This document shows, piece by piece, positions 748-28,566 of a stretch of DNA of 64,000 bases. The position numbers and the translations under genes are program-made. Origin of the DNA: Clostridiales bacterium SIT11 (GTDB taxonomy: Bacteria > Bacillota > Clostridia > Tissierellales > Peptoniphilaceae); the NCBI GenBank assembly GCA_001299455.1, contig CYUK01000003.1, positions 434,001 through 498,000 on the forward strand, given 5' to 3'. Numbering within the stretch: position 1 is the stretch's first letter; each line of letters starts with the position of its first letter. The notes beneath the pieces are model-generated. The model worked only from the letters and a program-made list of their open reading frames with translations, was not told where the DNA came from and did not search any database.

Positions 748-2139
748 TTATTTTAGAAATTCATATATTGTACCATCACAGTGTTTTATAAATTCAAAAT
801 CATGTGTAATAATTATAATGAGTTTTCCTTCTCTCTCCATATCGTGTAGGAAATTAATTAATGTATTCATCTGTGGTTTACATAATCCACTTGTAGGCTC
901 ATCTAAGATAATAATAGGTTTATTACTAAGCCTTGCTATAGCAATCAACAATCTTTGCTTCTCTCCTCCCGATAAACTTTGAGGATGTTTTTCAAGCTTT
1001 GATAATAATCCCATCTTTTCTAACATTTTTTCATTTAGGCTTTTATCTTCACTTACTGTTGATACTTCCGATAATACACTTTCTGTAAAAAGCTGGGAGC
1101 TAGGATCTTGCATTACCATAAAAATTTCTTTATTTTGTTTTGTAACTTTTTTTTGATTAACAAATACATATCCGTGACCTTTTGTAGTACCGGTCAATAA
1201 TTTAATGAAAGTACTTTTCCCTATTCCATTTTTTCCAATGATAAAATTTACTCCCTTATTAAAGGAAATACTAAAGTCAAAAATTTTATTCTTTTCGTAT
1301 TTTTTCTTAAAATTATGACATGATAAATCTCCATTGCTAAAATTATTTTTATCATCCAATAAATTCACTTTATAATATTTATTAATCTCTAAATCACTTT
1401 TCTCTATTTTATTAAATGTTCTAAGTCCATATCCTTCTGCAATAGCATTCAAATTATAATCATTTAAATCTTCTTTTTCGTATGAAATTAAAGACTCATT
1501 ATCAATAATACAGAGCCTATCCATTATATCTTTTAAATAAAATAATCTATGTTCCACAACAATTATTATCTTATTTAATTCTTTTAATTTCACTAAGGCT
1601 TCTTTTAACCTTTCTATAGATTCATTATCTAATGATGAAGATGGTTCATCTAATAAAATAATATCATTTTCAGAAATTGCACAAGCTGCAAGTGCTATCA
1701 TTTGCTTTTCTCCACCAGATAAATCAAATATATTTTTGTCTAATAAGTATTCTATATTTAAGAGTTTTGAGTATTTCTTTATTCTATTGATTATCTCTGA
1801 CTTGTCAGTATTTCTATTTTCTAGCTGAAAGGCTAACTCCTCAGTGGAATTCATACAGTAAAATTGAGATTTTGGATTTTGAAATACATTTGAAATAATA
1901 CATGATCTTTCAAATATATTTTTACTAAGTAAATCTAGGCTGTTATATTTTATTTCTCCATTAATATTAGCATCAAGGTATTCAGGTATTACTCCATTAA
2001 TTGCTTTTAATAGTGTGCTTTTTCCACATCCAGAATGTCCTGTAATAACTGTAATTTCACCAGCTTTACATTCAAAATTTAGATTTTTTAAGATATTTTC
2101 ATCATCAAAAGATAAATCAAGCTTTCTTATTTTAAGCAT
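748..2139 (-). CDS. ECF transporter ATPase, two ABC domains fused
   Basis: This 463-residue protein holds two complete ABC ATPase domains. Domain 1 has Walker A GHSGCGKST near residue 35, signature LSGGEKQM near 140 and Walker B IILLDEPSSSLD. Domain 2 has Walker A GKNGIGKST near 302, signature LSGGEKQR near 393 and Walker B IIILDEPTSGL. The fused A1-A2 layout is typical of energy-coupling-factor importers. Its start overlaps the end of the T-component gene by 8 bases, so translation is coupled. With the T and S proteins it should form an importer for a vitamin-like or metal substrate; nothing here names the substrate. Confidence 0.9.
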   Translation of the reverse strand: MLKIRKLDLSFDDENILKNLNFECKAGEITVITGHSGCGKSTLLKAINGVIPEYLDANINGEIKYNSLDLLSKNIFERSCIISNVFQNPKSQFYCMNSTEELAFQLENRNTDKSEIINRIKKYSKLLNIEYLLDKNIFDLSGGEKQMIALAACAISENDIILLDEPSSSLDNESIERLKEALVKLKELNKIIIVVEHRLFYLKDIMDRLCIIDNESLISYEKEDLNDYNLNAIAEGYGLRTFNKIEKSDLEINKYYKVNLLDDKNNFSNGDLSCHNFKKKYEKNKIFDFSISFNKGVNFIIGKNGIGKSTFIKLLTGTTKGHGYVFVNQKKVTKQNKEIFMVMQDPSSQLFTESVLSEVSTVSEDKSLNEKMLEKMGLLSKLEKHPQSLSGGEKQRLLIAIARLSNKPIIILDEPTSGLCKPQMNTLINFLHDMEREGKLIIIITHDFEFIKHCDGTIYEFLK

Positions 2140-2833
2140 ATTTTCTACCTCTTATATAAAAAAATAAAACTAAAATAGAAACAAAAAAAATTAAATAGTC
2201 AGCAAATGTTAACTTTGCTTCTCTAATATTTGATCTATTTTGATTGACAGCAAGACCCTTAGTTAATGAAGCTACTGTCAATTCATCAGCAGAATTTGAT
2301 AGGGTCATCAATAGTGGGATTATCCTATATTCAATTAATAAAATAGGATTCTTTAAAAATTTCCTAAAACTTATACCCCTCAAATAAATAGCTTGTTTTA
2401 TTTGTCTATACTCAATTCTTGTTGCATAAAAATATCTAACCATAACCGCAACAGGAATGGCTATCTGATCAGGACACTTCACCTTTTTTAATGAACAAAT
2501 TGCTTCTCCTACACTAGTCGTTAAAATTATATAATTTCCCATAACCATAGGTGCAAAAACTCTTTTTATTATAATTATAACTATGTGTATAAGTGATAAT
2601 ATTATAGAATCATTTAATTCCCTAATATTAATTTCTATAATATTCAATATTATAAAAAGTATGATTGATTTAATCCCGGATTTTATATGTCCAGATAAAA
2701 ATAATAAAAAAGTAGGGAGCATACATATTAATACATAATATATAGGATTTAGGCTTTGAATATTTCCAATTGTCATAATAAAAGAAATAACCATCATTAA
2801 AAATAATTTTGCTCTAAAATCTATCCTTATCAT
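2132..2833 (-). CDS. ECF transporter T component (EcfT/CbiQ family)
   Basis: A 233-residue integral membrane protein with about five hydrophobic helices. It carries the coupling-helix motif typical of EcfT proteins (around YLRGISFRKF, an Ala/Arg-Gly pattern that grips the ATPases). It overlaps the ATPase gene downstream and lies 24 bases after the S component. It is the membrane scaffold coupling ATP hydrolysis to the S component. The family call rests on membrane topology plus operon position. Confidence 0.85.
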   Translation of the reverse strand: MIRIDFRAKLFLMMVISFIMTIGNIQSLNPIYYVLICMLPTFLLFLSGHIKSGIKSIILFIILNIIEINIRELNDSIILSLIHIVIIIIKRVFAPMVMGNYIILTTSVGEAICSLKKVKCPDQIAIPVAVMVRYFYATRIEYRQIKQAIYLRGISFRKFLKNPILLIEYRIIPLLMTLSNSADELTVASLTKGLAVNQNRSNIREAKLTFADYLIFFVSILVLFFYIRGRKYA

Positions 2834-2857
2834 ATCTAATAACCCGCTCCCTAATTC

Positions 2858-3439
2858 TTACTTACCAACTTTTGAAAAATGTTTTTTCAAGAACACAATT
2901 CCCAAACTACAACCTACAAAAGCACCAATAAATCCTAAAATAGCCATGACTATTAAAATCCAATCAGGCATAACTTTCATCATGGTGTCAATAAATTCTT
3001 GCTTATAACCTTGATTTAAGAGCTCTTGTACATACTCATTTCTTGAGATGATAATCGGAACATAGTTTCCTAACGTACAAAGACTTGAAAAAGAAAATGC
3101 TAATCTAGATTTTCCTTTACTGTCATAAGAGCCTGATTTTAATATTATTTCTCCAATAAATCCTGCAATTGCTCCTGTTAAAAGTGCCCATGGACCATGA
3201 CCCATGATGACATAAGCTAAAGATATTAGCATTGTTTGAATAAAAAGCATTCCTGGCTTCTTAATTTTTGTTGAAAAAAGCATGTTACTAGGTCCAACTA
3301 AAATCCCCTGTACTAAGGGAACAATTGGCATCAAAACAGGAACCATAGCTGTAAATGAGCCTATTAGCATAAAAATAAACCCAAGTACTGCAAACAAACC
3401 AACATTAATTAAATCTCTAACTTCTAATTTTTTATTCAT
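2858..3439 (-). CDS. ECF transporter S component, MptD/Trep_Strep type
   Basis: A 193-residue protein with about five to six membrane helices. The N-terminus (RDLINVGLFAVLGFIFMLIG) and the segment around VPLVQGILVGPSNMLFSTKI resemble the Trep_Strep/MptD group of substrate-binding S components. The start is ATG 3439 with a GGAGG site just upstream. It lies directly before EcfT and EcfA, forming a dedicated (group I) ECF operon. The ligand is not known for most members of this group. Confidence 0.82.
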   Translation of the reverse strand: MNKKLEVRDLINVGLFAVLGFIFMLIGSFTAMVPVLMPIVPLVQGILVGPSNMLFSTKIKKPGMLFIQTMLISLAYVIMGHGPWALLTGAIAGFIGEIILKSGSYDSKGKSRLAFSFSSLCTLGNYVPIIISRNEYVQELLNQGYKQEFIDTMMKVMPDWILIVMAILGFIGAFVGCSLGIVFLKKHFSKVGK

Positions 3440-6215: not shown

Positions 6216-6737
6216 TTAAATACCATTATATTTTAAAAAAACAATTAATACTAAACTTATAAAAATAGCACTAATAAAAGCTATCCAAAAAATAAATTTA
6301 TCTACTTTAAACTTAGATTTAAATTTTTTTAAAGCTAAATTATATATTCCCACGCCCAATACACCACCTAATGTATTATTAATTATATCAGTTATATCAA
6401 ATACTCCAATTGACAATGCGTACTGTAAAAACTCTATAGCTAAACTAAAGAAAAATACAAAAAGAATACTTTTTAAATTGTTTTTACGAAATAAAATAGA
6501 TCTAATCATAATTCCCAAAGGTAAAAAAATGAGTATATTTGATACCATCTCATCAAAAATAACTTTAATATTAACTGTATTGTCATAATAAAATGGTAGT
6601 AAATTTATTTGTCGCTCAATCAATAAATTATTGATTGAAAATGTCATTTTAAATACTACAATAAAGATTAACCAAATTATATAGTATACAGTTAGCACTT
6701 TCATCCCAACTGAAATATATTGATTTTTCAATTTCAT
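6216..6737 (-). CDS. VanZ family membrane protein
   Basis: A 173-residue protein with about five membrane helices. The VanZ-family core is visible (NILIFLPLGIMI and later LAIEFLQYALSIGVFDITDIINNTLGGVLGVGIY, where the E, Q and D-x-x-D-x-x-x-N-T-x-G residues are family hallmarks). VanZ proteins are linked to low-level teicoplanin or other peptide-antibiotic resistance. It is the last gene of the ABC/immunity locus and is preceded by an AAGGGG ribosome site. A role in resistance to a lipid-II-targeting peptide is inference from context. Confidence 0.85.
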   Translation of the reverse strand: MKLKNQYISVGMKVLTVYYIIWLIFIVVFKMTFSINNLLIERQINLLPFYYDNTVNIKVIFDEMVSNILIFLPLGIMIRSILFRKNNLKSILFVFFFSLAIEFLQYALSIGVFDITDIINNTLGGVLGVGIYNLALKKFKSKFKVDKFIFWIAFISAIFISLVLIVFLKYNGI

Positions 6738-6764
6738 AATTAATTCCCCTTCAATCTATTAAAG

Positions 6765-7168
6765 TCACTTTAATTCCTTATTATACATTAACTTATATCT
6801 ATTACAGTTTTCAATTAAATCATCGTGACTCCCATCACCTACTATTTTCCCATTACTTTCCTCATAGAAGAATAAGTAACTTCATTACTTAACCTTTGTA
6901 AATAGTAGTTTTTAATATTATCTACTATTACAGATATAAATTGTAAAGATAAATATATAAGTATAAGTATTATAATATTATCAAATCTAGTGGAATGAAT
7001 TTGAATTATATTAATTATTGTTTGTCCTAATTTAAGAACTAAAAACGGAAAAACACCACTTACAATTGACAATATTATAGTAATCGCAAAAGAATTTTTA
7101 TCTACTTCATAAATCATCTTGAATGCTATTTTTATACATTCAAGATGATTTATTTTATCCTTACCCAT
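6765..7168 (-). pseudogene. ABC exporter with large internal deletion
   Basis: Codons 1-108 encode the start of an exporter transmembrane domain (FAITIILSIVSGVFPFLVLK, then TYSSMRKVMGK) and stop at 6842. In another frame the next bases encode the C-terminal end of an ABC ATPase (GKIVGDGSHDDLIENCNRYK) up to a stop at 6765. The middle, with most of the membrane domain and all nucleotide-binding motifs, is missing, and the join is out of frame. An intact family member has about 580-600 residues, so some 450 codons are lost. It sits 31 bases after the second permease gene, in the same direction. Confidence 0.82.
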
Positions 7169-7198
7169 ATATTTATCCTCTACTTCCCATTAAAATAT

Positions 7199-8428
7199 TT
7201 ATTGCTCTATTTTGTTATATGATTTTATACTTAGCAATAAATACAGAGCAATATTAATTAAAGCCATTATTACTAGAAACTTTGGAATCCATAAAATTTT
7301 ACCTGGCAACTTAACAAATTCAAATTTTTGATACTGTTCAATTAAGCTATTTTCTGCAGTACCTAATCCCATAGACGGCAAAAAATAAAATATTGATTTA
7401 AACAATTTTTTTCCATACAATAATGATGGAATAAAAAATAAAACACTCGATATGGCTGATGAAACCATAGAAACTTTTGAATTTATAGCGACAAATATTG
7501 ACATCATTGAACTTGCAATAGTAAATAATATACTTAACAAAAATACACTTAATATAACTTTACCTATAGTTAAATTAGATATTGACAGTTGATTAAATAG
7601 TAACATTTGAAAAGATGAATCTAAACCATTAGTATAAAGATATTTAATAGTTCCATAATAAATAGATATATTTAATATCAAATAAAGCGATATAATACTT
7701 GCTAAGGCAAGTATCTTGCTGCAAATATATTTATTTCTTCCATTTCTAGTTGTTCTAAAAATTGAATCTAGGTAATTTTCTTTATCTTCGACAATGCATT
7801 GTGATGAAATCAATATACAAATTAGTGATAATACCGTTATAAAAATATTTACGAAAAATAGTATATCTTCACTAAAATATCCTCCATAATAAAATGGTTT
7901 ATTTACCTCTTTATATTTTTCTAGAGCAAATTCTGTTATCTTGTCATTGTCATATTTCTGTTTTATGTCCCTTTCCAATGCATCATAACAACTTTGATAA
8001 AAATTTAAATCTTTTTCTGTATCAAGTTCGTTTACATCAAGTAAACTTCCAGATGTTGTAATTGTATATGGGTATGTTATTACTCTTAATATAGGATCAA
8101 ATTTCGATATATTTTTTTTAGCATCCTCTGATAAGTTTTCTCTACTGTTTACATTTTCATTATTTAATATTTCTTTATAAGATTTTACTACTTTAGTTAT
8201 TTTTTCTTCTGTCAAATAACCTTCAGAGGCTTTATTATCCTCATTAAAATGATCTATAGCCTCTTTTCCAAAATAGGTAATTGTATCACCAGAACTTATA
8301 TCATCATATTGTACACTTCTATAAGTAATAAATGATATCAAAAAAGTAAAAAATAAACCCACGACCAAAAAAACTCTTACTGATTTTTTAGATAAAAATC
8401 TTTTTAGTTCCTGTAAATATATGTTCAT
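7199..8428 (-). CDS. ABC-2 type permease (second of a paralogous pair)
   Basis: A 409-residue protein with one N-terminal helix (VRVFLVVGLFFTFLISFI), an extracytoplasmic domain of about 150 residues and about five C-terminal helices. Its start (MNIYLQELKRFLSKKS) and its outside domain (GKEAID, then a KEIL segment) parallel the other permease at 8854-10128, so the two likely arose by duplication and form a heterodimer with the single ATPase. This is the layout of peptide exporters and bacteriocin self-protection ABC systems. A GGGGAGG ribosome site precedes ATG 8428. Specificity is unknown. Confidence 0.8.
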   Translation of the reverse strand: MNIYLQELKRFLSKKSVRVFLVVGLFFTFLISFITYRSVQYDDISSGDTITYFGKEAIDHFNEDNKASEGYLTEEKITKVVKSYKEILNNENVNSRENLSEDAKKNISKFDPILRVITYPYTITTSGSLLDVNELDTEKDLNFYQSCYDALERDIKQKYDNDKITEFALEKYKEVNKPFYYGGYFSEDILFFVNIFITVLSLICILISSQCIVEDKENYLDSIFRTTRNGRNKYICSKILALASIISLYLILNISIYYGTIKYLYTNGLDSSFQMLLFNQLSISNLTIGKVILSVFLLSILFTIASSMMSIFVAINSKVSMVSSAISSVLFFIPSLLYGKKLFKSIFYFLPSMGLGTAENSLIEQYQKFEFVKLPGKILWIPKFLVIMALINIALYLLLSIKSYNKIEQ

Positions 8429-8489
8429 AATCTATACCTCCCCTACAGCTTTGACAAAGCAAACTAGTCTTATTATTTATAATTAATAT

Positions 8490-8537
8490 AGAAGCCCACA
8501 AAATATAGACTAAAATTTCTATATAGTGTGAGCCTCT
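8490..8537 (-). other. Long imperfect RNA hairpin between two operon genes
   Basis: The arms 8490-8509 and 8518-8537 can pair over 20 positions with two mismatches and two G-U pairs, with an 8-base loop. It lies in the 169-base gap between the 96-residue gene and the second permease. No T-run follows it on the minus strand, so it looks more like an mRNA processing or stability element than a terminator. Confidence 0.5.
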
Positions 8538-8597
8538 ATGATTCATCATTAATATGATGCTCTAAGAGTTTTTAAAGCGCGAACTCTGTTACCAGTT

Positions 8598-8888
8598 CTA
8601 TATTCTCCTTATTTTATTTTTTTCATCCCACGATAAAATTGGATCATAATAATCTTTTAAAATCATTCTTTCTTCATAAGATTGTGGTCTTGTATATATA
8701 CTTTCATGTGGTCCATAATCTATGGAAGATGTTAATATGTTTATATTCTTAGGCAACCAATCGCATTCATTTAAATAAACTTGTATCTTATCATACTTAT
8801 CCTCATAATCAGGTCCTTCGATTACCATGTTTAAGGTAATGTTTTCTTTATTATTATATTTTTCTGCTTCTAGGGTTATTAAGTCCAT
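8598..8888 (-). CDS. Unknown 96-residue acidic protein within the ABC operon
   Basis: I do not recognise this protein. It is 96 residues, soluble-looking, rich in Asp, Glu, Tyr and Asn, with no signal peptide or membrane helix. ATG 8888 is preceded by GGAGG at a good distance and overlaps the end of the upstream permease gene by 35 bases, which argues for coupled expression of a real gene. Its place between two permease genes suggests an accessory or regulatory part of the transporter, but no known motif supports a function. It could be a shortened gene; the stop is followed by other-frame coding potential of only 17 codons. Confidence 0.6.
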   Translation of the reverse strand: MDLITLEAEKYNNKENITLNMVIEGPDYEDKYDKIQVYLNECDWLPKNINILTSSIDYGPHESIYTRPQSYEERMILKDYYDPILSWDEKNKIRRI

Positions 8889-10128
8889 AATTACCTCCAA
8901 TTTTTGAATACATCATTACTACTAAACTTGGTAAAATAATAATATATATTACAGCTGATATCATTATAAGACTTGATGAACTCATCCAATTTCCAAAAAC
9001 ATTTACAAAATTAAAATCAGCTATTTGATTTTGTAATGAATTGAGTAGTCCTACTCCTGAAGATGGAAAAATATAGTTTATAGCACTAATCATACCAATA
9101 GGAGAAATTATTGTTGGAAATACTGCTAATAAAATTGATTTCATTATGGATTCAACTTTTCTTTTACTTAATACAGAAATAATTAGTGTAGCAAGAATGG
9201 TTGAAATCAATATGATACTATTACAAATAAGCATATATTTATTAAACTGTCCAAAGTTCCAATTATGCAAACTTAAAGCACTAAACATCATCTGAACAGA
9301 AGTCTTTTTATACTCTGTTCCAAAAGCATAGTCTAATATAGAGCCTTGTATGAAGTTTCCTAAGAGCAAAGTTAATACCGAAATCGTAAGTATTGCTAGG
9401 ATTTTATAGATGGCAAACTTTCTTCTGCCATATTTAGTTGTTTTAAATATATAATCTAAATCATTCTCACTATCTGACGAGAATATTGGAGCTGCTACTA
9501 CAACCATTAAAATTATTATTATCGTATTATAAAATCCTCTATAATCATTTGCATCTGTACTATAATATCCATAATATTCATATGGAGTCTTTATTTTACT
9601 CAGTGCTTTTTCAGATTTTTCTATAATTTGATTCTGAGCTTTATTAGGATATTCATTTTCAATTACTTTATTTAGATAATCAAATACTTTATTGTAAAAA
9701 TATTTGGTATCATTGATATCTATGCTTAAAACTGGAGGAAGGTTATTACTTTGAGAATCAGTGAATACTTCATTTACTTTCTTACTTATATGTTCTATAG
9801 GCATAAGCTTCTTTGTATTAATTTCAGGTTTTAATTCAGACCTATCAGTAACATTATATTCTCTTAGTATTTCTCTATATTTTTTTGTGCCATTATAAAT
9901 TAAATCTTCTGTTATCTTTCCTGAATAAGGCTCTTTAGCTTTTTTAATATATTCTATTGCTTCTTTTCCTTTTAAATTTTTTACTTTATCTCCTTCTCCA
10001 TAGGTAATTTTTGTAAAATTAATTGGAGCTATGGAAAGCAATATAGCAAGTAGTAATGAAAACAATATTATAATTTGATTTGATCTTATTGATAAAATCC
10101 TCTTTATCTCATTTAAGTAAATTTTCAT
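8854..10128 (-). CDS. ABC-2 type permease (first of a paralogous pair)
   Basis: A 424-residue membrane protein: N-terminal helix (QIIILFSLLLAILLSIAPI), a large extracytoplasmic domain (about residues 35-190) and several C-terminal helices from FYNTIIIILMVVVAAPIF onward. It starts one base after the ATPase stop codon. Together with the ATPase and the second permease it makes a three-gene exporter of the kind used for peptide-antibiotic immunity. The link to antimicrobial peptides is inference from architecture and from the nearby VanZ and two-component genes. Confidence 0.82.
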   Translation of the reverse strand: MKIYLNEIKRILSIRSNQIIILFSLLLAILLSIAPINFTKITYGEGDKVKNLKGKEAIEYIKKAKEPYSGKITEDLIYNGTKKYREILREYNVTDRSELKPEINTKKLMPIEHISKKVNEVFTDSQSNNLPPVLSIDINDTKYFYNKVFDYLNKVIENEYPNKAQNQIIEKSEKALSKIKTPYEYYGYYSTDANDYRGFYNTIIIILMVVVAAPIFSSDSENDLDYIFKTTKYGRRKFAIYKILAILTISVLTLLLGNFIQGSILDYAFGTEYKKTSVQMMFSALSLHNWNFGQFNKYMLICNSIILISTILATLIISVLSKRKVESIMKSILLAVFPTIISPIGMISAINYIFPSSGVGLLNSLQNQIADFNFVNVFGNWMSSSSLIMISAVIYIIILPSLVVMMYSKIGGNYGLNNPRSRKI

Positions 10129-10129
10129 T

Positions 10130-11017
10130 TTAATTCACCTTAAAACTTCTATCTTCTGGAAAGACCCATAAATAGAAGTCTTCTAGATGAGCTTTTGTTA
10201 ATTTAGAATTATTTAAAACATCATCTTTATCTGATATGTATCTAATGAGTACGTTTCCATCATCTTGTTGTTTTACATTAACAACATTCAATTGTGTTTC
10301 TTTTTCTGCATATTCTCTATTTGATATAGATGCTTCGTATACCTTATTCTTAATTTTAGATATCAGTTCATCAGTTGTTCCAGAATATACAAATTTACCA
10401 TCTTTCATAATTAAATTTGATGTTGATATATATTCAATATCAGAGACTATATGAGTCGAAAGCAAAACTATTTTATTTTTTGATATTTCCGTGATAAAAT
10501 TTCTTAATTTTATTCTCTCACCAGGATCAAGTCCTGCTGTTGGTTCATCTAAAATTAATATTTTAGGATCATTTAAAATAGCTTGACATATTCCTACTCT
10601 CCTTCTCATTCCTCCTGAAAGCTTTACTACTTTTTTGTACTTGACATCAGATAAGTTTAATACTTCTAGGAGTTTATCAATCATTTCTTCTGTTTTGCTC
10701 TTGTCTATACCTTTTAAAGCAGCTACATATTGTAAAAATGAATTTACAGTAAACTCTGGAGCACAAATAAATTCTTGAGGTAAAAACCCTAACAAATTCC
10801 TATATTCTTCTCCTAATTTGTTGATTCTTTCCCCATTATATAAAATTTCGCCTTGACTCGGTATACTAATTCCAGTGATCATTTTAATTAAAGTTGTTTT
10901 CCCAGCACCATTTGCACCTAAGAGTCCCCAAACACCTGGACATAACGTAGCTGATGCATTATCAACCGCTAATTTATCTTTAAATTTCTTACTTACATTT
11001 TTAATCTCTAATTCCAC
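10130..11017 (-). CDS. ABC transporter ATPase (peptide exporter type)
   Basis: This 295-residue protein has Walker A (LLGANGAGKTTLIK, near residue 38), a Q-loop (LPQEF), signature LSGGMRRRVGICQ near 135, Walker B (ILILDEPTAGLDPGE) and the switch His in LSTHIVSDIE. The start is GTG 11017 behind GGGAGG. It energises the two downstream permeases. Its upstream region is cut by the Tn916 end about 170 bases away, so the native promoter may be only partly retained. Confidence 0.92.
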   Translation of the reverse strand: MELEIKNVSKKFKDKLAVDNASATLCPGVWGLLGANGAGKTTLIKMITGISIPSQGEILYNGERINKLGEEYRNLLGFLPQEFICAPEFTVNSFLQYVAALKGIDKSKTEEMIDKLLEVLNLSDVKYKKVVKLSGGMRRRVGICQAILNDPKILILDEPTAGLDPGERIKLRNFITEISKNKIVLLSTHIVSDIEYISTSNLIMKDGKFVYSGTTDELISKIKNKVYEASISNREYAEKETQLNVVNVKQQDDGNVLIRYISDKDDVLNNSKLTKAHLEDFYLWVFPEDRSFKVN

Positions 11018-11359
11018 TAAACTACCTCCCTTATCTTTTATGCTTCCTTATTAAAAAGTAAAAAATACATCTTCATGTTAGTGATAAAAATTTTACTCCT
11101 CTATGATTTTATTTTAATTGATACAATAAAAAAGTGTTTTAATATTCTATTGATTAATTCTTAAGATTTCATTAATTTTTATATAAAACAAAGTATAAAT
11201 TTCTAATTATCTTTTTATATTTTCTTAAATGCTCGTAAAGCCTTATTCTATGTGCTTTCGAGTATTTTTACTGTAGGAAGATACTTCACGTTTCTTTGCA
11301 TATTTCCTCATGTCTTAGCTGTCAGAAGTGGTAAATAAGTAGTAAATTCATTTGTACTA
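11018..11359 (-). other. Intergenic: ABC operon leader, Tn916 junction and int-side end
   Basis: No gene is seen. Bases 11018-11180 are AT-rich leader or promoter DNA of the ABC operon. The Tn916 int-side end must lie close to 11185, as judged from the element's usual length of about 18.03 kb and its visible other end. The transposon arm carries integrase arm-type repeats at 11327-11349 (AGTGGTAAAT, AAGTAGTAAATTC). Confidence 0.65.
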
Positions 11360-12577
11360 CTAAGCAACAAGACGCTCCTGTTGCTTCTCTTTATTCAAGC
11401 GTTTCATCTCTGACATTGCGGAATCAAATGTTGCGTGTGCGTAATAGTTCAGCGTCATGGCTATATTTGCATGCCCCATAATGTATTGTAATGCTTTTGG
11501 GTTCATTCCTGCATTTGCATAGTTGGTACAGAATGTATGTCGCAAACTATGTGGAGTGATGTGTGGTAACTTATCATCATTATACTTGTTGTATTTCTTA
11601 ACAAGACCTTTCATCATACCATTATAGTCACTCGCCACTTTTGGATAGTTCTTTCTATTAAGAAAGAGGAAATCACTATATCCATCAATCTCAACACGCT
11701 TATCATTCTTTCGATTCGCTAACACTCGCTTAAATGCTTGATAGGCTTCTTCAACCATAGGAACTTGACGTTCACCACTTTTGGTCTTTGGTGTTTCAAT
11801 GTAGTACCCAATTTCAGTATCTCTCAATAGCTGATGGTCTATATTGACAAGACGATTCTCAAAATCTAAATCTGGAAGTGTCAAACCACCAAACTCTGAA
11901 ATACGAAGACCTGTTTTTAAGAGTATCAGAATTTCATCATAATTTTTGCTGTAGGTTTTATCAGCTTTCGCAAAGGCTAACAGTTTTTCTTCCTGTTCTC
12001 CTGTTAGTACGGTCTTAGGGACAGTATCATCATCAAGAACTGCATTCAGTTGAAAGTCAAATGGATTCTTCCGAACACAATCATCTTGTATCGCAATGTA
12101 GAATGAAGCCTTTAAAGAACGTTTATAGTTATTGATGGTTTGATAGGCATAACCATTTTCACTCATTCTAATCGCCCATTCTTTAGCGTCTGATGGTTTA
12201 ATACTATCAATACTTCTTGCACCTAACTTGTCTTTCTTCAAAATATCCATAAGATATTTGCGTCCAGTTTCAGTATTTTTTCTAACCTTTGGTCTTTGAG
12301 CGTTCTGTTTTGCGTAAAGCTGGCAGAGTGTCATTTTCTTTCCTACAACATCAATACCATCATGAATGTCTTTCTGTAACTCTGCGATTTTCTCCCTAAG
12401 TGAGATACAATCACGCTTTCCTGCTGGTACTCTGTCTGTAGCCACAAGTTTCCACGAGTAAACAAATTGCGGTTCTCCAAATGAATCTGTATATTTGTAT
12501 AAGTATCTTCCGTCTTTTCGTTGGCTCTCTCCAGTCTTTAAAATTCGACCTTTATTGTCACGTCTTTTTTCTGACAT
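11360..12577 (-). CDS. int: Tn916 integrase (tyrosine recombinase)
   Basis: At 405 residues it has the length of Tn916 Int. The N-terminal arm-binding domain (residues 1-70) is followed by the SAM-like core-binding domain (about 85-170) and the catalytic domain. The catalytic signature is complete: Arg in LLKTGLRISE, HSLRH, GHANIAMTLNYYAH with His and nucleophilic Tyr. It excises and inserts the transposon using variable coupling sequences. Xis lies just upstream in the same direction. Confidence 0.98.
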   Translation of the reverse strand: MSEKRRDNKGRILKTGESQRKDGRYLYKYTDSFGEPQFVYSWKLVATDRVPAGKRDCISLREKIAELQKDIHDGIDVVGKKMTLCQLYAKQNAQRPKVRKNTETGRKYLMDILKKDKLGARSIDSIKPSDAKEWAIRMSENGYAYQTINNYKRSLKASFYIAIQDDCVRKNPFDFQLNAVLDDDTVPKTVLTGEQEEKLLAFAKADKTYSKNYDEILILLKTGLRISEFGGLTLPDLDFENRLVNIDHQLLRDTEIGYYIETPKTKSGERQVPMVEEAYQAFKRVLANRKNDKRVEIDGYSDFLFLNRKNYPKVASDYNGMMKGLVKKYNKYNDDKLPHITPHSLRHTFCTNYANAGMNPKALQYIMGHANIAMTLNYYAHATFDSAMSEMKRLNKEKQQERLVA

Positions 12578-12658
12578 GGCATTTGCTCCTTTCCATTATG
12601 GAAAGAGCCCTGATACGACTTAATACTATTTTATCATATACAAGACCCTTTGGCTACG

Positions 12659-12862
12659 CTAGATTGCATTCAATGTATCTATAATTTTTTCAAATTGTTT
12701 TCGTTTAACCTGAATACGATTTCCATTCATAATCAGCCAGTTTGCATTTTTATTTTCTTCTGCCAAACGACGCAGCTTGTTTTCGCCAATACGAAAATAT
12801 TTTGACGCTTCTTCAATAGTTAGGGTATAACGCTCCCAAATCGGAATGTCAGTCTGCTTCAT
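12659..12862 (-). CDS. xis: Tn916 excisionase
   Basis: A 67-residue basic protein with a winged-helix excisionase motif ([23 protein letters not shown]). It matches Tn916 Xis in size and place. It bends the transposon ends and steers Int toward excision. A GGAGG site precedes ATG 12862. Confidence 0.97.
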
Positions 12863-13318
12863 AAAATCCTCCTTTCCAAATCACTTATTGGATTTCATAA
12901 AAGTTGTTTTACAAGCAATCGAACAGCTCTAGCAAAGCTCACGGGAGTTCCACCCCTGCATGGTTCTCATGTAGCCATACTCATTGCCTGCGACGCTTTT
13001 AACGCTCGGACTATTGACTGTATGGGAGTATCATTATCACGATAAGAAAGTCGTCGCTGGCAATCCTGCTAAAGATTGTTTTTCGGAACACTAACTGAAA
13101 CGCTCGCTATCTTTAGAAGATAGGTCATGGCGGTTAGCTCCGTTGGCTCTTTTCTTATCGAAACGTATTCAATTACTTTTATTCAGTTTTCAAAGAACAA
13201 TGGCTCGTTAGCCTATCAAAACACATTGAAAGCTCAATATGCTTTGATGGAATAACAAACCTCCCTGTTCGGGAAGCGTGGAATAGTATGGCACGCTTCC
13301 ACGAAAAGAGAGAGGTTA
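12863..13318. other. Tn916 non-coding stretch between xis and orf8
   Basis: No convincing gene is seen in these 456 bases. A hairpin formed by GGAAGCGTG and CACGCTTCC (about 13272-13305) follows orf8 on the minus strand and could end or slow transcription toward xis-int. Tn916 maps place the small orf5 and orf10 in this general area; I find no start with a ribosome site to support them here. Confidence 0.55.
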
Positions 13319-13549
13319 TTACTTAATTTCAAATGACAGAATCTTTGTAATCAGTCTGGTTTCCATTCTTCCACGTAAGACTTCATCAACGACCATACTT
13401 TGATTGCCATATTCATCTTTCATAAGTCGTAGGGAACGTTTCGTTATGTACCCTCTGTAATGATGTAGAATCTGGTTAATCGCTTCTGTATCGCCATCTG
13501 TTGCCTTTACAATGAGAGGAAAGGGAATCATAGGATATTGTGTTTTCAT
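13319..13549 (-). CDS. orf8: Tn916 Orf8, small helix-turn-helix-type protein
   Basis: This 76-residue protein (start MKTQYPMIPFPLIVKATDGD) matches Tn916 Orf8. It overlaps orf7 by 4 bases and is co-transcribed with it. Together they drive the xis-int and transfer genes when tetracycline relieves attenuation. The short N-terminal helix (LIVKATDGDTEAINQILHHY) resembles the start of sigma-like HTH_16 proteins. Confidence 0.93.
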   Translation of the reverse strand: MKTQYPMIPFPLIVKATDGDTEAINQILHHYRGYITKRSLRLMKDEYGNQSMVVDEVLRGRMETRLITKILSFEIK

Positions 13550-13968
13550 TCTTCAAATTCCTCCATAAACTTTTTGATTAAGGCTAGTCCACTGGTTCTA
13601 TGCCGATAGACAGTAGAACGGTTCAATTTCAACAGGTCTGCAATTTCTGAATCGCTCATGTCCATAAAGTAAAACAGCAGTAGAATTTCACGTTTCTTGT
13701 CTGGCAACTCACGTAATGCTTCACTCAATAAATCATTTTCAACACCAACTGATATTCCATTGAGTGTAAAAATCTGAAAGTCAGTTGAATAGTTATCTGT
13801 TGTCGCAAACTGGCTAACAAGATAATCGCCAACATCAGAAAAGGACACTTCACGCTTTGCGATCCTTGAAAGATAAAGCAGATAATTCTTTCGCTCGTCT
13901 TCCATAGCACGTTTACAGATATAGTCAAACTGATTTTCTATTGTGGTCTGAAAAAAAGATGGTTTCAT
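13546..13968 (-). CDS. orf7: Tn916 Orf7, sigma-70-like regulator
   Basis: 140 residues from ATG 13968, which has AAGGGGGTG just upstream. The C-terminal sigma region 4 is clear (LRELPDKKREILLLFYFMDM, then ADLLKLNRSTVYRH). In Tn916 it activates its own operon and the int/xis and transfer genes. It lies downstream of tet(M), so reading through from the tet(M) promoter raises its level. Confidence 0.94.
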   Translation of the reverse strand: MKPSFFQTTIENQFDYICKRAMEDERKNYLLYLSRIAKREVSFSDVGDYLVSQFATTDNYSTDFQIFTLNGISVGVENDLLSEALRELPDKKREILLLFYFMDMSDSEIADLLKLNRSTVYRHRTSGLALIKKFMEEFEE

Positions 13969-14472
13969 GTTTCTCACCCCCTTTCTGTCTAGGAAAGGAA
14001 GTGAGCCTTGCTCTTTTATCTCCTTTCACTCTTAGTCCCAATGTGAAAGGGGGATTTGTTGCATTACTGATGAATAAACTTTGTAAAAAAGTTCTGAATA
14101 ACCAAAAAAGCACACAAACAGATTGATTTCTCTGTTTACATGCTTTTATTTTTCTATCTATATGATTTATAAAACCACATTGGTGGACGTACTTATCTAT
14201 TGCAGATAGACGACTTTTTTTGATAAATACTCAATGTGGGGAACTTGATTGTATGTGATATACTTCATGGCGACTTTGACCTCCAACAAACCGCCATTTG
14301 GAAGTAAGATACAATATTTTAACAGCATAAATAGCACTACCATATAACGGTTTTTTTTATTGGCGTTTAGTAGTGCTTTTTATTAAATATGAACCTATAA
14401 ACTATATAACATGTTTTTCTATACCTGTTTCTAATTCAATAGGAACAGTAAAATGTATAGAGGTGGTCTACT
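13969..14472. other. Divergent regulatory region between orf7 and orf9
   Basis: Five hundred bases without a supported gene separate minus-strand orf7 and plus-strand orf9. There is a terminator-like hairpin (AGCACTAC near 14324 with GTAGTGCT near 14371, then Ts) and AT-rich promoter-like DNA. A GAGGTGG ribosome site at 14460 serves orf9. An antisense role of orf9 transcription on orf7 has been proposed for Tn916. Confidence 0.55.
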
Positions 14473-14826
14473 ATGCGTAAAAAAGAAGATAAATATGATT
14501 TTAGAGCCTTTGGTTTAGCCATTAAAGAAGCTCGATTGAAACGAGGTTTAACTCGTGAACAAGTGGGAGCATTGATTGAAATTGACCCACGTTACTTAAC
14601 TAATATTGAAAATAAGGGGCAACACCCCAGCATACAAGTTCTTTATGACCTTGTATCGTTACTTCATGTTTCCGTTGATGAATTTTTCTTACCTGCTAAT
14701 AACTTGGTAAAAAGCACCCGACGATTACAGATAGAGAAATACATGGATAGCTTTACAGACAAAGAACTATCCTTAATGGAATCTTTAGCCAGCGGTATCA
14801 ACGAAGCAAGAAACATCGAAGACTAA
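14473..14826 (+). CDS. orf9: Tn916 Orf9, Cro/CI-type repressor
   Basis: A 117-residue protein with an XRE helix-turn-helix at its N-terminus ([19 protein letters not shown], then [17 protein letters not shown]). It is the only long plus-strand gene of Tn916 and faces orf7/orf8. It is regarded as a repressor of the orf7-orf8 operon. It is followed by a strong bidirectional hairpin. Confidence 0.94.
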
Positions 14827-14851
14827 TTAAAAGAATCCATACATAACGGAA

Positions 14852-14896
14852 AGAGCCGATAAAATGAGATTGTATTAATCTCATTTTATCGGCTCT
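14852..14896. terminator. 19-bp hairpin between orf9 and orf6
   Basis: Arm 14852-14870 pairs perfectly with 14878-14896 over 19 bases, with a 7-base loop. It closes plus-strand orf9 and overlaps the last codons of minus-strand orf6, so it may act in both directions. Confidence 0.8.
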
Positions 14897-15071
14897 GCGT
14901 CTTTGCGTCTGGCTCTGTAATCACAGTTACTTTGAACTGCTTTATTTCAATTAAATTTTCTTGTCTGCATTTCGGACAATAGAGGGGGAATTTTTTTAAT
15001 TCAGTATCTTCCCTTATCTTTAATCGTGTTTTATTTCCACATACAGGACACAATATCCACTTGTAGTTTAT
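14886..15071 (-). CDS. orf6: Tn916 Orf6, cysteine-rich KTR-domain protein
   Basis: About 60 codons encode a zinc-ribbon-like protein: CPVCGNKTR near the start and CPKCRQ in the middle give two CxxC pairs, and the end TEPDAKTQSR is the usual one. It lies just downstream of tet(M). No ATG, GTG or TTG precedes the body: behind the strong AAAGGAGGAG site the reading frame runs through ATT and ATA. Either one of these rare codons starts translation, or the start was lost by an ATG to ATA change at 15069-15071. Function is unknown. Confidence 0.75.
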   Translation of the reverse strand: MNYKWILCPVCGNKTRLKIREDTELKKFPLYCPKCRQENLIEIKQFKVTVITEPDAKTQSR

Positions 15072-15171
15072 AATAACTATCTCCTCCTTTACACTTTAAT
15101 TCAAATCTTTATTAAAGAATATTTCATCTTATTTAACAAGAAACCATATTTATATAACAACATAAAATACA

Positions 15172-17091
15172 CTAAGTTATTTTATTGAACATATATCGTA
15201 CTTTATCTATCCTACTATTTGGACGACGGGGCTGGCAAACAGGTTCACCGGTAGTAACATGGTACCCTTTTAACTCTGTTAAACAAACACTACGTCCATT
15301 TGTAAAGAAAGTTAAATCACTACGATATTCTTGAATACATCGAGCAGGGATTTCTCCACTAAGAATGACCTCATTATTTTTCAATTGAGTGTCTACGATG
15401 TTCGCACAATATTTAGGAGCATCGTTGTATGCTCGTGAAAGATATTCCTGTGGCGCATAAATTTTAAAACTAAGATATGGCTCTAACAATTCTGTTCCAG
15501 CTTTTTTTAAGACTTGTTCCAATACAATAGGAGCAAGCATTCGAAAATCTGCTGGGGTACTAACAGGGCTATAGTATAAGCCATACTTAAAACAGATTTT
15601 ACAGTCCGTCACATTCCAACCATACAATCCTTGTTCACAGCCATAGCGTATCCCCTCCATAACTGCATTTTGAAACGATTGATTTAAGTATCCAAGAGAA
15701 ACCGAGCTCTCATACTGTACTCCGCTCCCTAATGGAAGCGGTGCTACAGATAGACCAATGGAAGCCCAGAAAGGATTTGGCGGCACTTCGATGTGAATGG
15801 TATATTCTGCATTTTTTAACGGTCTCTCCATATAAATGACTGTAGGCTCTTTTAGTTCTATCTCCACATGATACTTTTCTTGCAACAGTGCACTAATCAC
15901 TTCCATTTGTACTTTCCCTAAGAAAGAAAGTATAATTTCATGTGTCGTAGAATCCACGTAATATCGTAGAAGCGGATCACTATCTGAGATTTCCAAAAGG
16001 GCATCAAGCAACATTTCTCTCTGTTCAGGTTTACTCGGTTCAACAGTTGTTTGTAGTAGAGGGTGCGGATTTTCAATCTTTTTTCTCTGTGGCAATAGTT
16101 TTGTATCTCCAAGAACACTATTTAACTTCAAAAACTCATTTTGCAAAATAACAATTTCTCCAGAATAAGCTCTATCAATCTTACATAATTCACCATTTAT
16201 TGAAGTATACATTTCTGTAACTTTTATTTTTTCTTTTTCTGATACTCTAACCGAATCTCGTAAATGTAGTACTCCACTATAAAGGCGTATATATGCAAGA
16301 CGTTGTCTTTTTTTTGTATATTCAATTTTGAAAACATTTCCGCAAAGTTCAGACGGACCTCGATGTGTTGATGAATAAAATTTATTCGTAATAACTTCTA
16401 TAAGGTTATCAATCCCTATATTACTTTTTGCACTTCCATGATAAAGAGGGAACAGAGAACAATTCTGAAATCTTATGCTTTCCTCTTGTTCGAGTTCCAA
16501 TGCTTCTAATGATTTACCGGACATATATTTCTCTAAAAGGTCATCGTTTCCCTCTATTACCGTATCCCATTGTTCAGATTCGGTAAAGTTCGTCACACAC
16601 ATATTAGGATACAGTTCTACCTTCTGTTTGATTACAATTTCGGCAGAAAGTTTCTCTTTAATATCCTGATAAACCGTTGATAAATCAATTCCATTTTGGT
16701 CAATCTTATTGATAAAAAAGATTGTGGGAATCCCCATTTTCCTAAGTGCATGAAATAATATACGAGTTTGTGCTTGTACGCCATCTTTTGCAGAAATCAG
16801 TAGAATTGCCCCATCTAAAACTGATAATGAACGATATACTTCTGCTAAGAAATCCATATGTCCTGGCGTGTCTATGATGTTCACCTTCGTATTTTCCCAC
16901 TGAAAAGAGGTTATTCCTGTCTGAATTGTAATTCCTCTCTGACGTTCTAAAAGCGTATTATCCGTCCTCGTTGTACCTTTGTCCACGCTTCCTAATTCTG
17001 TAATCGCTCCACTGTTATATAATAAGCTTTCTGTTAAGGTAGTTTTTCCTGCATCAACATGAGCTAAAACTCCAATATTAATAATTTTCAT
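15172..17091 (-). CDS. tet(M): Tetracycline resistance ribosomal protection protein TetM
   Basis: 639 residues from ATG 17091 (GGAGG upstream), the usual TetM length. It is an EF-G-like GTPase: G1 AHVDAGKTT near residue 10, G3 DTPGH near 74, G4 NKID near 128, then EF-G domains II to V. It binds the ribosome and expels tetracycline from the A site. I see no frameshift or missing motif. A leader peptide and hairpins upstream provide drug-sensitive attenuation, and reading past this gene feeds the Tn916 regulatory and excision genes. Confidence 0.99.
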
Positions 17092-17106
17092 GTGATTTTC
17101 CTCCAT

Positions 17107-17193
17107 TCAAAAGCCCAAAAGGGCATAAAAATCCCAGTGATAAATACTCTTATCACTGGGATTTTTATGCATAACCATAGGCATACAAAGCAT
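17107..17193 (-). CDS. orf12: tet(M) leader peptide (orf12)
   Basis: A 28-codon ORF whose peptide starts MLCMPMVMHKNPSDKS ends two bases before the tet(M) ribosome region. Its second half is the stem of a hairpin, so ribosome movement on this ORF decides whether the hairpin forms. This is the known Tn916 attenuation leader. Confidence 0.93.
   Translation of the reverse strand: MLCMPMVMHKNPSDKSIYHWDFYALLGF
17131..17162 (-). terminator. tet(M) attenuator hairpin
   Basis: ATCCCAGTGATAA (17131-17143) pairs with TTATCACTGGGAT (17150-17162), inside the leader ORF and followed by T residues on the minus strand. A second, longer-range pair (AAGGTATTCTTAAA near 17231 with TTTAAGAATACCTT near 17318) lies upstream and may compete with it. 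Confidence 0.85.
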
Positions 17194-17369
17194 ACAGATA
17201 TTCTCCGGATACTTTAGAATCACATGATAAAGGTATTCTTAAACTGGGTACAAAAAACTAAGCCCTCCTAAAAAAGGACATCCAATTATTTGTTCCCACT
17301 ATCAAATTGACAGTTTATTTAAGAATACCTTGCCGCATATTTATTAACTCCTTTTAAATAGATACTTAA

Positions 17370-17398
17370 ATAATAGCACGTAAGAGCATATTTGTAAA
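17370..17398 (-). promoter_or_regulatory. tet(M) promoter
   Basis: On the minus strand: -35 TTTACA (17393-17398), a 17-base spacer, -10 TATTAT (17370-17375). Downstream, an AAAGGAG site precedes a 7-codon mini-ORF (17315-17338) whose codons form one arm of the upstream hairpin. Confidence 0.85.
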
Positions 17399-17467
17399 GG
17401 AATCTCCAATTTTTTATCAAAGAGAGTACGTGATTACAAAATAGCTGTAATAATGTACCAATATTTG

Positions 17468-18403
17468 TTATTCTATAATCTTCCAATTACTCCCGTTCTT
17501 TTCAAGTACCAAATCAAATTGAGATACCTGCGTTGCTTTGGTCTGCTGGTCGATATACTCCACTGTCAGCGATACCGTGACTTGATTATCCTTACGATTG
17601 TGAATAGGATTTACCAGTTCTTGAAAGATGTACTCTTTTCCGATTGGTTTTAATATCCCGTCATTCACATAGTAGGAAAGTTCACTGGCTGTCGCTGTAG
17701 GATAGAGCTTGAAGAACGTCGTTAAAAACTCATTGATTTCATTGGTTGTAATGGAATCAACCGTCCCCTCACTTTCAATGGCTTTTGGTTTATAACTTGA
17801 TTTCTTAGGTATGTTGGTAATGGTCGGATTCTTAACCAGTACCATATTTCCAGAACCATCTACATAGACACTCACTATATAAGCAGAGTGGACGGTCTTT
17901 GTATTTTCTCCCTCTGTAATGAGCTGGTCTACACTGTAGGTTACATTAAACTCATTGTCGCCAGTTGGCTCTACCGTCCATATCTGAAATCCTCTTACAG
18001 AAGACGATACAGGAATATCTTTGCGTACTGTATCAACATTGAGAGCTTGAAGTTCATCTGTCAGATAGCCTTTTAGACTTTCCATTCGATTATCAATGGA
18101 CTTATCGGATTGCTCCCATGAATAGTAGACTTTCGCAAAGTTCTCTACAAAATTTTCTACATGATGAGTATCAACGTATTCCTTTTCTATGATAGTTGTT
18201 TCGTGAATAGTATGAGTATCTATAGCTGTAAAGTGCTTGAATATCGCAAAGCTGAAACTAAGCCCTAAAAGTACCCACAAGGCAATCACAACCTTTTTAT
18301 GAGGATTGACCTTATAGTAGACACGAGGTTTCTTTTCCTTTGGTATCTGTTTTTCTTTATTCTGATTTTTTCTAAATTTCATCATTAAATCTTCCTTTCT
18401 CAT
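17468..18403 (-). CDS. orf13: Tn916 Orf13, VirB8/TcpC-like transfer protein
   Basis: 311 residues with one N-terminal membrane helix (VVIALWVLLGLSFSFAIF, about residues 53-70) and two NTF2-like extracytoplasmic domains, as in TcpC/VirB8. It anchors the transfer channel. It overlaps the orf14 stop by 4 bases. A start at ATG 18385, six codons in, has the better ribosome site (AGAAAGGAAG). Confidence 0.93.
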   Translation of the reverse strand: MRKEDLMMKFRKNQNKEKQIPKEKKPRVYYKVNPHKKVVIALWVLLGLSFSFAIFKHFTAIDTHTIHETTIIEKEYVDTHHVENFVENFAKVYYSWEQSDKSIDNRMESLKGYLTDELQALNVDTVRKDIPVSSSVRGFQIWTVEPTGDNEFNVTYSVDQLITEGENTKTVHSAYIVSVYVDGSGNMVLVKNPTITNIPKKSSYKPKAIESEGTVDSITTNEINEFLTTFFKLYPTATASELSYYVNDGILKPIGKEYIFQELVNPIHNRKDNQVTVSLTVEYIDQQTKATQVSQFDLVLEKNGSNWKIIE

Positions 18404-19401
18404 TGTTTGATTCGTCCTGCTCCCACTAAATGCTGTTGCCAGTAGGGGCTTGTTAAGTCGGCATAACCGATTGGGTCGCCTGCATGAAACATACGGTTAT
18501 TGCCAAGGTATATCCCAACATGAGTAATATAAGAGCCAGCGTTATAGGTAGAATGAAAGAAAACCAAATCGCCAGCTTGTGCTTCCGATAGTGGGATATG
18601 CTGGGTCACATCATATTGCTGTTGTGCGGTTCGTGGTAAGTTAATTCCAGCTTTTCCATACGTCCATTGTGTCAGTCCGCTACAATCAAAAGAAGTAGTC
18701 GGGGAAGCTCCACCGTAAACGTATCGCCAGCCCTCATATTTCAGTGCTTCGTCCATGATGGCTTGTACCGTATCATCATCAAACTCTGTTGTGACAAGAT
18801 ACTGCGTTACCAGTTGCACATAAAACATATTGCCATAGTTGTATCGCCAGCCCCCATTGATAGGTATGGCTATGGGATTGGGGTAAGACACTTTTTCGCC
18901 ACCTGAATACTCTTTTGAGAAACTTTGAGCCAGTTCAAAGGTATATTTATTTCCACGATTAGCCACATACCCTAAGAAACCACCACCATAATTGTAGGAC
19001 TGGATAACCGATTCTAAATCTACACTGAGCCTTTCGCTACTGGCTAATAATTCACTGAAATACTTCACACCTTGCTTAATGGATTCTTCTGTACTCAATG
19101 AATTAGGTGGAAGACCGAGGGATTCCGAGGACTGCATAACATCTTCCGCAGTACCGCCCGATTCCACCTGTATAATCGCAAGAAGTATGTTGACATATTC
19201 TTCAACGCCATATTCTTTGGCATATTTTTCTACCATAGGCTTATGAGCCAGCACTTCTGCGGAAACATTCACACCTCCATAATGAATATTGGAAATTCCG
19301 CTGTCCTGTTCATCTGAAAATAAAATGGCAACAAACAGAAGCAGTGAGAAGACCATCAAGAATAATCCAGAACCACCAATCACTAAAGTTTTCAACTTCA
19401 T
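18400..19401 (-). CDS. orf14: Tn916 Orf14, lytic transglycosylase plus NlpC/P60 hydrolase
   Basis: 333 residues: a membrane helix at the N-terminus (SGLFLMVFSLLLFVAILF), a goose-lysozyme-like domain (about 50-190, with NILLAIIQVESGG) and a C-terminal NlpC/P60 domain with catalytic Cys in TSFDCSGLTQW and His in HVGIYLGNNRMFHAGDP. It opens the cell wall for the transfer channel. The group II intron site known in the related Tn5397 lies in this gene; here it is uninterrupted. Confidence 0.95.
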   Translation of the reverse strand: MKLKTLVIGGSGLFLMVFSLLLFVAILFSDEQDSGISNIHYGGVNVSAEVLAHKPMVEKYAKEYGVEEYVNILLAIIQVESGGTAEDVMQSSESLGLPPNSLSTEESIKQGVKYFSELLASSERLSVDLESVIQSYNYGGGFLGYVANRGNKYTFELAQSFSKEYSGGEKVSYPNPIAIPINGGWRYNYGNMFYVQLVTQYLVTTEFDDDTVQAIMDEALKYEGWRYVYGGASPTTSFDCSGLTQWTYGKAGINLPRTAQQQYDVTQHIPLSEAQAGDLVFFHSTYNAGSYITHVGIYLGNNRMFHAGDPIGYADLTSPYWQQHLVGAGRIKQ

Positions 19402-21575: not shown

Positions 21576-21577
21576 AT

Positions 21578-24025: not shown

Positions 24026-24401
24026 AAAATTCACTCCTAACTGCTGTAATGGCTTCTTGTGGCTGGTTTCTGCCAAGCGTTACTTTTTTTCCTGCATAGG
24101 TCAGCTTTGGTCGCAGTGCATAAGCAATGACAGACTTCAAAAATCCATAAGGCTTTTTACCATCAAAAGTTTTTGTAGACATAAACCATGTGAAAGCCAC
24201 AGGAATCCCAAAGTATTTGAGAAATGCTCCCTCTATCATGGAAAGAGGGGGCAAGTTGCCAAGTATCATCACTGCAAAGAGTGACACGACAAACCATGTC
24301 ATTTGCGTAAAGGTTATGGGAAACGGAAGTCTAAAATCATTGATAGAATACAGTACCTTTTCCACAGACCAGATACTGGTATAGCTTCGTATTTTCTTCA
24401 T
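24009..24401 (-). CDS. orf17: Tn916 Orf17, TcpE family membrane protein
   Basis: 130 residues from ATG 24401, preceded by GAAAGGA. Two hydrophobic helices (MTWFVVSLFAVMILGNLPPL and FLKYFGIPVAFTWFM) fit TcpE. An alternative start at 24515 adds 38 codons but lacks a ribosome site and overlaps ardA. The gene overlaps orf16 by 17 bases. It is a small membrane part of the transfer channel. Confidence 0.88.
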   Translation of the reverse strand: MKKIRSYTSIWSVEKVLYSINDFRLPFPITFTQMTWFVVSLFAVMILGNLPPLSMIEGAFLKYFGIPVAFTWFMSTKTFDGKKPYGFLKSVIAYALRPKLTYAGKKVTLGRNQPQEAITAVRSEFYGISN

Positions 24402-24489
24402 GTAATCAATCCTTTCATAAAAAATAGGGGTAGCTGATTGAGCCACCCCGTAAAATAGAAAATCTGCCAGTAGTAATGTACCGACAGAT

Positions 24490-28551: not shown

Positions 28552-28566
28552 TTTTCCTCTCTTTCT

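Follow-up and report, generated by a model that had tools for sequence, protein, structure and literature searches.

A probable immunity-only remnant of a ruminococcin-C-like sactipeptide cluster on conjugative elements of the Peptoniphilaceae

At positions 6216-11017 of a 64,000-nucleotide stretch of Clostridiales bacterium SIT11 (contig CYUK01000003.1, 434,001 to 498,000; hereafter the window), a frame of 96 residues lies between genes for two ATP-binding cassette (ABC) permeases, in a block that also holds an ABC ATPase, a deleted exporter and a VanZ-like protein. The questions raised by this locus are what the small frame encodes and what the block does. An earlier note made from the window's letters had considered the 96-residue protein to be of no known family and perhaps an adapter or immunity factor, and the block to suggest resistance rather than production. 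Comparison with an intact relative on plasmid pAPRE01 of Anaerococcus prevotii, and with 130 genomes of the family Peptoniphilaceae (largely human-associated anaerobes; the source genome being G000), indicated that the locus is probably an immunity-only remnant of a ruminococcin-C-like (TIGR04067) sactipeptide cluster, carried on conjugative elements and protecting against the peptide of neighbouring cells.

Origin of the 96-residue frame

In NCBIfam the 96-residue open reading frame (ORF) matched a single model, NF035951 for RumMC-type sactipeptide maturases (E 1.5e-5, positions 265-314 of a profile of 510), and tblastn with the intact pAPRE01 maturase aligned residues 265-358 of that enzyme to it at 86% identity, results at odds with its description as a protein of no known family. 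The frame opens with the maturase gene's initial 7 codons, which are fused, at a junction at ~8868, to those for maturase residues ~272-358 of 518. One cysteine only is retained (position 42), those of the intact enzyme at 132, 136, 139 and 397-484 being gone; the CxxxCxxC motif of the radical S-adenosylmethionine (SAM) maturase and its C-terminal cysteine cluster, the latter presumably a SPASM domain to judge from position and family, are missing, and the product cannot be counted as a sactipeptide maturase.

A stretch resembling a ribosome site precedes the start of the frame, which overlaps the upstream permease gene, and on these grounds the earlier note had considered it probably a real gene; both features are indeed present, but they belong to the intact maturase gene, from which they were inherited. 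A neighbourhood check on conservation, which the note had proposed, found the frame in 9 of the 130 genomes, yet as one inherited scar with identical junctions, and the lack of conservation that the note had named as a refutation therefore applies only in part. Given the stop that interrupts it in Peptoniphilus harei and its absence from the locus of Anaerococcus hydrogenalis, where the ATPase and permeases are intact, the frame is on its sequence best described as the scar of two deletions and not as a novel factor; by way of caution, a good ribosome site on a small ORF may still mark such a scar.

Other candidates were set aside: a chance ORF in view of the homology to the maturase, a leaderless bacteriocin in view of the 86% identity to the maturase interior, and a phage gene in view of a search of phage records that yielded no match, PHROGs likewise giving nothing for the ORF. 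Among PDB sequences the best match reached only E 0.32, and a plasmid search with the ORF returned only pAPRE01 plus a weak Paraclostridium match (E 9e-5).

When the whole block was used as the query, pAPRE01 covered 100% of it at 96.3% identity in four pieces. The order on the plasmid is VanZ, exporter, permease, sactipeptide precursor, radical SAM maturase, permease, ATPase, histidine kinase and response regulator; the precursor, annotated as an 'Apre_1838 family putative sactipeptide bacteriocin', scored 126 bits against TIGR04067 (cut-off 45), while the maturase, at 465 bits, fell under the RumMC cut-off of 720 and is consequently regarded as a relative outside that equivalog. The window has the same gene order, and the DNA of its VanZ, permease and ATPase genes is 92.6-99.7% identical; gene order and DNA identity together place the window locus among descendants of a TIGR04067 sactipeptide cluster. 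On the plasmid, in contrast, precursor, maturase and exporter are all undamaged and the locus has no Tn916. Murphy et al. 2011 (PMC3132745) reported the plasmid cluster (Apre_1834-1840 of A. prevotii DSM 20548) to be thuricin-CD-like; in the available portion of that paper Apre_1836 is called hypothetical, a possible structural gene is seen in Apre_1839, and neither is treated as an immunity gene.

Nested losses and retained genes

Alignment with intact alleles resolved the losses into discrete deletions: one of ~685 bases cost the precursor gene its 5' part and the maturase its C-terminal part, another of ~791 bases cost the maturase its N-terminal part with the catalytic cluster, and the third, in the window, of ~1360 bases, took out most of the exporter. 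At these junctions the two ends have 5, 1 and 5 bases in common, respectively, and at a smaller exporter deletion in genome G039 they have 7. In the window the middle of the exporter is missing (junction ~6844-6848), a C-terminal piece (residues 563-591) surviving between the stub and VanZ, while the C-terminal residues of permease 1 are unlike those of intact loci, as one end of the maturase deletion falls inside the gene overlap. The pAPRE01 precursor query found no match in the source genome, which by that search holds no intact precursor, and tblastn detected precursor residues 46/47-64/65 in each of the other ten loci that lack production but not in the window. The earlier observation that the block contains no bacteriocin precursor consequently stands for a whole precursor, but not for the 3' tail of the gene, which persists.

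Over the 130 genomes the ORF, permease 2 and precursor queries gave 16, 20 and 7 matches respectively, distant relatives included, and the locus was present at high DNA identity in 15. A full-length precursor, maturase and exporter were found in four (A. prevotii, A. tetradius, Ezakiella coagulans and A. octavius), and the remaining 11 lacked a whole precursor and maturase and kept the ABC genes. Finegoldia magna DSM 20470 has lost only most of the precursor and the C-terminal part of the maturase, leaving a longer truncated maturase; Peptoniphilus senegalensis has in addition lost the N-terminal part; A. vaginimassiliensis, A. marasmi, A. obesiensis, P. harei and Urinicoccus massiliensis add a small exporter deletion; and in the window, genome G017 and A. 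lactolyticus a larger exporter deletion spans the small one. Both maturase junctions are common to nine loci. A. hydrogenalis has its own maturase-side junction and its own exporter deletion, its precursor-side break lying within ~3 bases of that of the other ten.

The losses thus form a nested series, which would fit stepwise loss, although the series could also have been assembled by recombination between elements, as exemplified by P. senegalensis, whose permease 2 is 95.4% and permease 1 99.6% identical to that of the window. Since the ORF and the permeases were themselves queries used to find loci, it is relevant that a DNA query of exporter and VanZ alone recovered the same 15 loci; among the matches listed for it there was no long remnant without ABC genes, the remainder being short or weak (79 bases in G024, for example).

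Among the 11 non-producing loci the ATPase is intact in all, permease 1 is open in all and permease 2 is intact in 10, being almost identical across most other carriers. By way of comparison, VanZ is intact in nine (frameshifted in P. harei, G112; not found in A. obesiensis, G037), the 96-residue frame is present in nine with a stop in one, and the exporter is whole in two (F. magna and P. senegalensis). With the precursor and maturase broken, and the ATPase and both permeases whole here and in 9 of the 10 other non-producing loci (U. massiliensis being the exception), the interpretation of the block as one of resistance and not of production was upheld. Complete ABC genes accompanied by no structural gene correspond to an orphan bacteriocin immunity locus, the description of these genes as immunity-type being drawn from their neighbourhood.

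The putative pump and its rival explanations

The two permeases are paralogues, as had been noted previously, and share 28% identity. Permease 2 matched PF12698; permease 1, like the exporter stub and the ORF, had no Pfam match, and PDB sequences returned nothing for it up to E 10. Its predicted structure (mean pLDDT, the predicted local distance difference test, 78.9; predicted template modelling score 0.83) nonetheless has the ABC-2 membrane fold of a type V exporter permease, and was nearest to NosY and PmtCD (VIA Z 20.9 and 16.2; best alignment 227 residues at 2.9 Å); with Foldseek the best hit was PmtCD at E 0.0024, nothing being found at E <= 0.001. The fold is therefore that of the membrane domains of PmtCD, the phenol-soluble-modulin exporter, and of NosFY, both type V ABC systems, from which permease 1 differs in an outside region of ~150 residues between its first two long helices and in a sequence identity of 9-16%. 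This outside region is among the less certain parts of the model, and of the 39 positions at which the window differs from pAPRE01, 26 fall within it (residues 38-190; 416 residues compared), an excess that might be expected of a ligand-binding face. The ATPase matched lantibiotic-protection and PmtA models, both under cut-off; against TIGR03740, the LanFEG lantibiotic immunity ABC model, it scored 149.8 bits (cut-off 309.75) and is not assignable to that family.

Seven divergent loci contained a phmmer-supported permease relative, and five of these have a RumMC-like maturase gene nearby, of three distinct kinds: L058 (F. magna) and its near-copy L059 (G114), L060 (G001) and its near-copy L061 (G126), and L033 (G114), of which L058, L060 and L033 were checked against NCBIfam. 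Precursor-like genes accompany some of them, that of L058 scoring over the TIGR04067 cut-off and that of L060 under the CA_C0660 cut-off, while L059 and L033 match the precursor query. A locus in G036 (L032) was left out of the relatives, its membrane protein having no phmmer match to either permease. It is because five of seven divergent loci pair related permeases with maturases that the ATPase and two permeases are read as the cluster's own self-protection pump.

The sequences show that deletions stripped an ancestral cluster of most of its precursor gene, of the catalytic part of its maturase together with the C-terminal cysteine part, and of the bulk of its exporter, and that they spared VanZ and the two-component regulator as well as the ATPase and both permeases. 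If the locus is an immunity-only remnant, the ATPase and permeases would make up a type V (ABC-2) exporter by which the sactipeptide is cleared from the membrane, their outside domains would bind it, and a carrier would survive beside producers, the module travelling between genera on conjugative elements, here together with tet(M) on a nested Tn916. A TIGR04067 sactipeptide would then fit better as a challenge peptide than the nisin, bacitracin or teicoplanin proposed in the earlier note.

One rival to this interpretation is that the whole block is decaying and by now functionless, its immunity genes persisting since the losses are recent and the element has moved fast. That every one of the 11 non-producing loci retains an intact ATPase and an open permease 1 frame, despite several deletions in other genes, makes such decay unlikely, and all six inferred deletions miss the three ABC genes, an outcome reached in 0.08% of trials with random placement of the same sizes (0.3% for five deletions) on the premise of uniform placement and independent events. 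A number of observations nevertheless weigh against an immunity function. That premise is itself open to objection, since the A. hydrogenalis maturase loss may be non-independent, its precursor break being ~3 bases from the others', and when this event and the nested exporter deletion are omitted the product of the four single-event frequencies rises to ~0.018. The copies are near-identical, and retention of the ABC genes may be due in part to recent spread; permease 1 shows 13 nonsynonymous and 7 synonymous changes among the derivatives, a ratio (pN/pS) with little power because these are almost identical. A ~1.35 kb insertion interrupts permease 2 in U. massiliensis (G129, L023 ~11276-12627), VanZ is frameshifted or was not found in the two genomes mentioned above, and in four genomes Tn916 cuts the operon off from the kinase and regulator. 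Outside-domain differences in permease 2 number 9 of 13 against pAPRE01 and 14 of 32 against G045, the latter scarcely an excess. Lastly, L062 (G051) and L063 (G072) had no maturase among frames of at least 300 residues in 7 kb.

These two loci, in having related permeases with no maturase found nearby, also favour an ABC system that resists broader cell-envelope peptides such as bacitracin, nisin and glycopeptides, with the help of VanZ; the match of the ATPase, under cut-off, to a lantibiotic-protection model and the presence of a VanZ domain point the same way. VanZ, however, scored only 75.4 bits against the 250 required by the curated vanZ-A glycopeptide-resistance model, and the placement of related permeases near sactipeptide maturases in five of seven divergent loci renders this broader role improbable. 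Still less credible, to the point of being very improbable, is co-option of the 96-residue protein as an adapter or immunity factor, a maturase fragment that would still bind the peptide or its leader and aid the pump. The frame, with the maturase's own start, is kept in 8 of 9 copies, and the 8 copies of equal length differ by 2 synonymous changes and 1 nonsynonymous change; but the latter is the P. harei stop at codon 87 of 96, P. senegalensis has a 3-base insertion, F. magna DSM 20470 has its longer truncated maturase in place of the ORF, and the A. hydrogenalis pump genes are intact with no counterpart to it.

Returning to the immunity-only remnant, the cluster unit reaches past 6216-11017 to the kinase and regulator, from which it is separated by a Tn916-type conjugative transposon whose flanks are contiguous in pAPRE01. 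The element includes int (11360-12577; Tn916 integrase DNA-binding domain) and tet(M) (15172-17106; 1512 bits, cut-off 1420). The same element occupies this site in G014, G015 and G017. Of the four loci with it, that of A. marasmi (G015) carries the small exporter deletion and the rest carry the large one, so that Tn916 probably arrived before the large deletion. The int gene is read in the direction of the pump, and between 10900 and 12700 no terminator-like site was found where shuffles gave 0.9, while promoter-like sites numbered 11 (6.7 expected), counts that are uninformative taken alone, and a literature search by title found no paper on Tn916 read-through here. A fuller account can be offered only tentatively: a mobile production cluster would have become, repeatedly and stepwise, a mobile immunity-only module in four genera (precursor and maturase lost first, exporter next, pump kept), and in four genomes tetracycline-linked transcription from int might drive peptide resistance in place of the native two-component system.

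The ruminococcin C cluster of Ruminococcus gnavus E1, as far as the available text of PMC6779426 describes it, resembles the cluster inferred here in its RumMC-type maturase, cysteine-containing precursors (~63 residues) and genes predicted to confer immunity; it differs in that the pAPRE01 maturase is under the RumMC cut-off and the window has no working maturase. In the accessible parts of PMC8172795 and PMC13239113, thuricin Z/huazacin and gnavucin D are sactipeptide clusters with ABC transporter or permease genes (two predicted immunity genes in gnavucin D); unlike the window they are complete producing clusters. Orphan bacteriocin-protecting ABC genes without a structural gene are known as enterococcal mr10EFGH, and resistance is stated there to be transmissible without production, although bacteriocin class and transporter are different and no stepwise deletion series is described in the available part of that report (PMC10598978). 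An immunity-only form of the present sactipeptide locus with a deletion series was not found in a literature search thin on subscription journals; the pAPRE01 cluster and orphan ABC immunity in enterococci being already known, the apparent novelty, as judged from genome sequences, would be an immunity-only sactipeptide locus with such a series. It suggests a route from producer to resistance locus by which production genes are lost and the shield stays and spreads. The 11 of 15 carriers that are non-producing and have ABC genes are relevant should such sactipeptides be considered as antimicrobials, and the nested deletions constitute a natural variant set bearing on which gene protects.

Features of the window and neighbouring observations

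The gene positions given in the earlier note were confirmed, all being open frames where placed and on the - strand. The precursor tail was delimited from pAPRE01 (L019) coordinates, a junction alignment in 10 loci and a junction scan with a 5-base shared word. For the VanZ-like protein a part in immunity is putative only.

Table 1. Coordinates of the locus and associated features in the window
Feature	Position	Strand	Remarks
VanZ-like membrane protein	6216-6737	-	Intact; PF04892 E 1.2e-20; final gene of block; same position in pAPRE01
Exporter stub (peptide-export ABC protein)	6842-7168	-	~105 N-terminal residues of 591; delimited by tblastn and by comparing junctions against intact copies
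ABC permease 2, 409 residues	7199-8428	-	Intact; ABC2_membrane_3 (PF12698) E 5.7e-10
Precursor gene 3' tail	~8549-8610	-	Joined to maturase remnant at ~8606-8610
96-residue ORF, maturase remnant	8598-8888	-	Counted from ATG; runs out in precursor-gene tail
ABC permease 1, 424 residues	8854-10128	-	Intact; helices 15-37 and 191-212 flank outside region
ABC ATPase, 295 residues	10130-11017	-	Intact; PF00005 E 1.7e-30
Tn916-type conjugative transposon	11193-29210		Between ATPase and histidine kinase; integrase, Tet(M), flanks
Histidine kinase of cluster	29275-30333	-	Whole open frame; HisKA and HATPase_c; adjoins operon in pAPRE01
Response regulator of cluster	30314-30997	-	Whole open frame; Response_reg and Trans_reg_C

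Past Tn916 and the kinase and regulator lies a conjugation region with VirB4- and VirD4-like proteins, and on the opposite side of the locus are a relaxase and a MobC-like gene. A Tn916-type right end, at a site unlike that of the window, occurs a few kb on the VanZ side in P. senegalensis (L027 1-3072) and E. coagulans (L030 17529-19901), and the Tn916 copy of A. marasmi contains ~1.6 kb of additional DNA (L055 5710-7301, G015) at a point matching window 28902-28904. A group II intron reverse transcriptase (TIGR04416) is encoded at window 36295-38016; alignments of G014 and G129 skip from 36200 to 38542, and the intron seems to be missing there. At the element edge (748-3439) a two-domain ABC ATPase, a small permease and a third membrane protein, identified by eye beside a TetR-like regulator, are perhaps an ECF-type transporter.

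Beside the first cluster of pAPRE01 (L019 5477-7176), an AlbA-like radical SAM protein (101.5 bits, cut-off 850) is paired with a cysteine-containing peptide of 41 residues, with an ABC ATPase just past the pair, likely a second peptide cluster. The source genome also encodes, outside the window (G000:C3:149417-150712; L001, L002), a radical SAM frame of 457 residues matched by the RumMC model in two parts, which we take to be possibly a SCIFF maturase.

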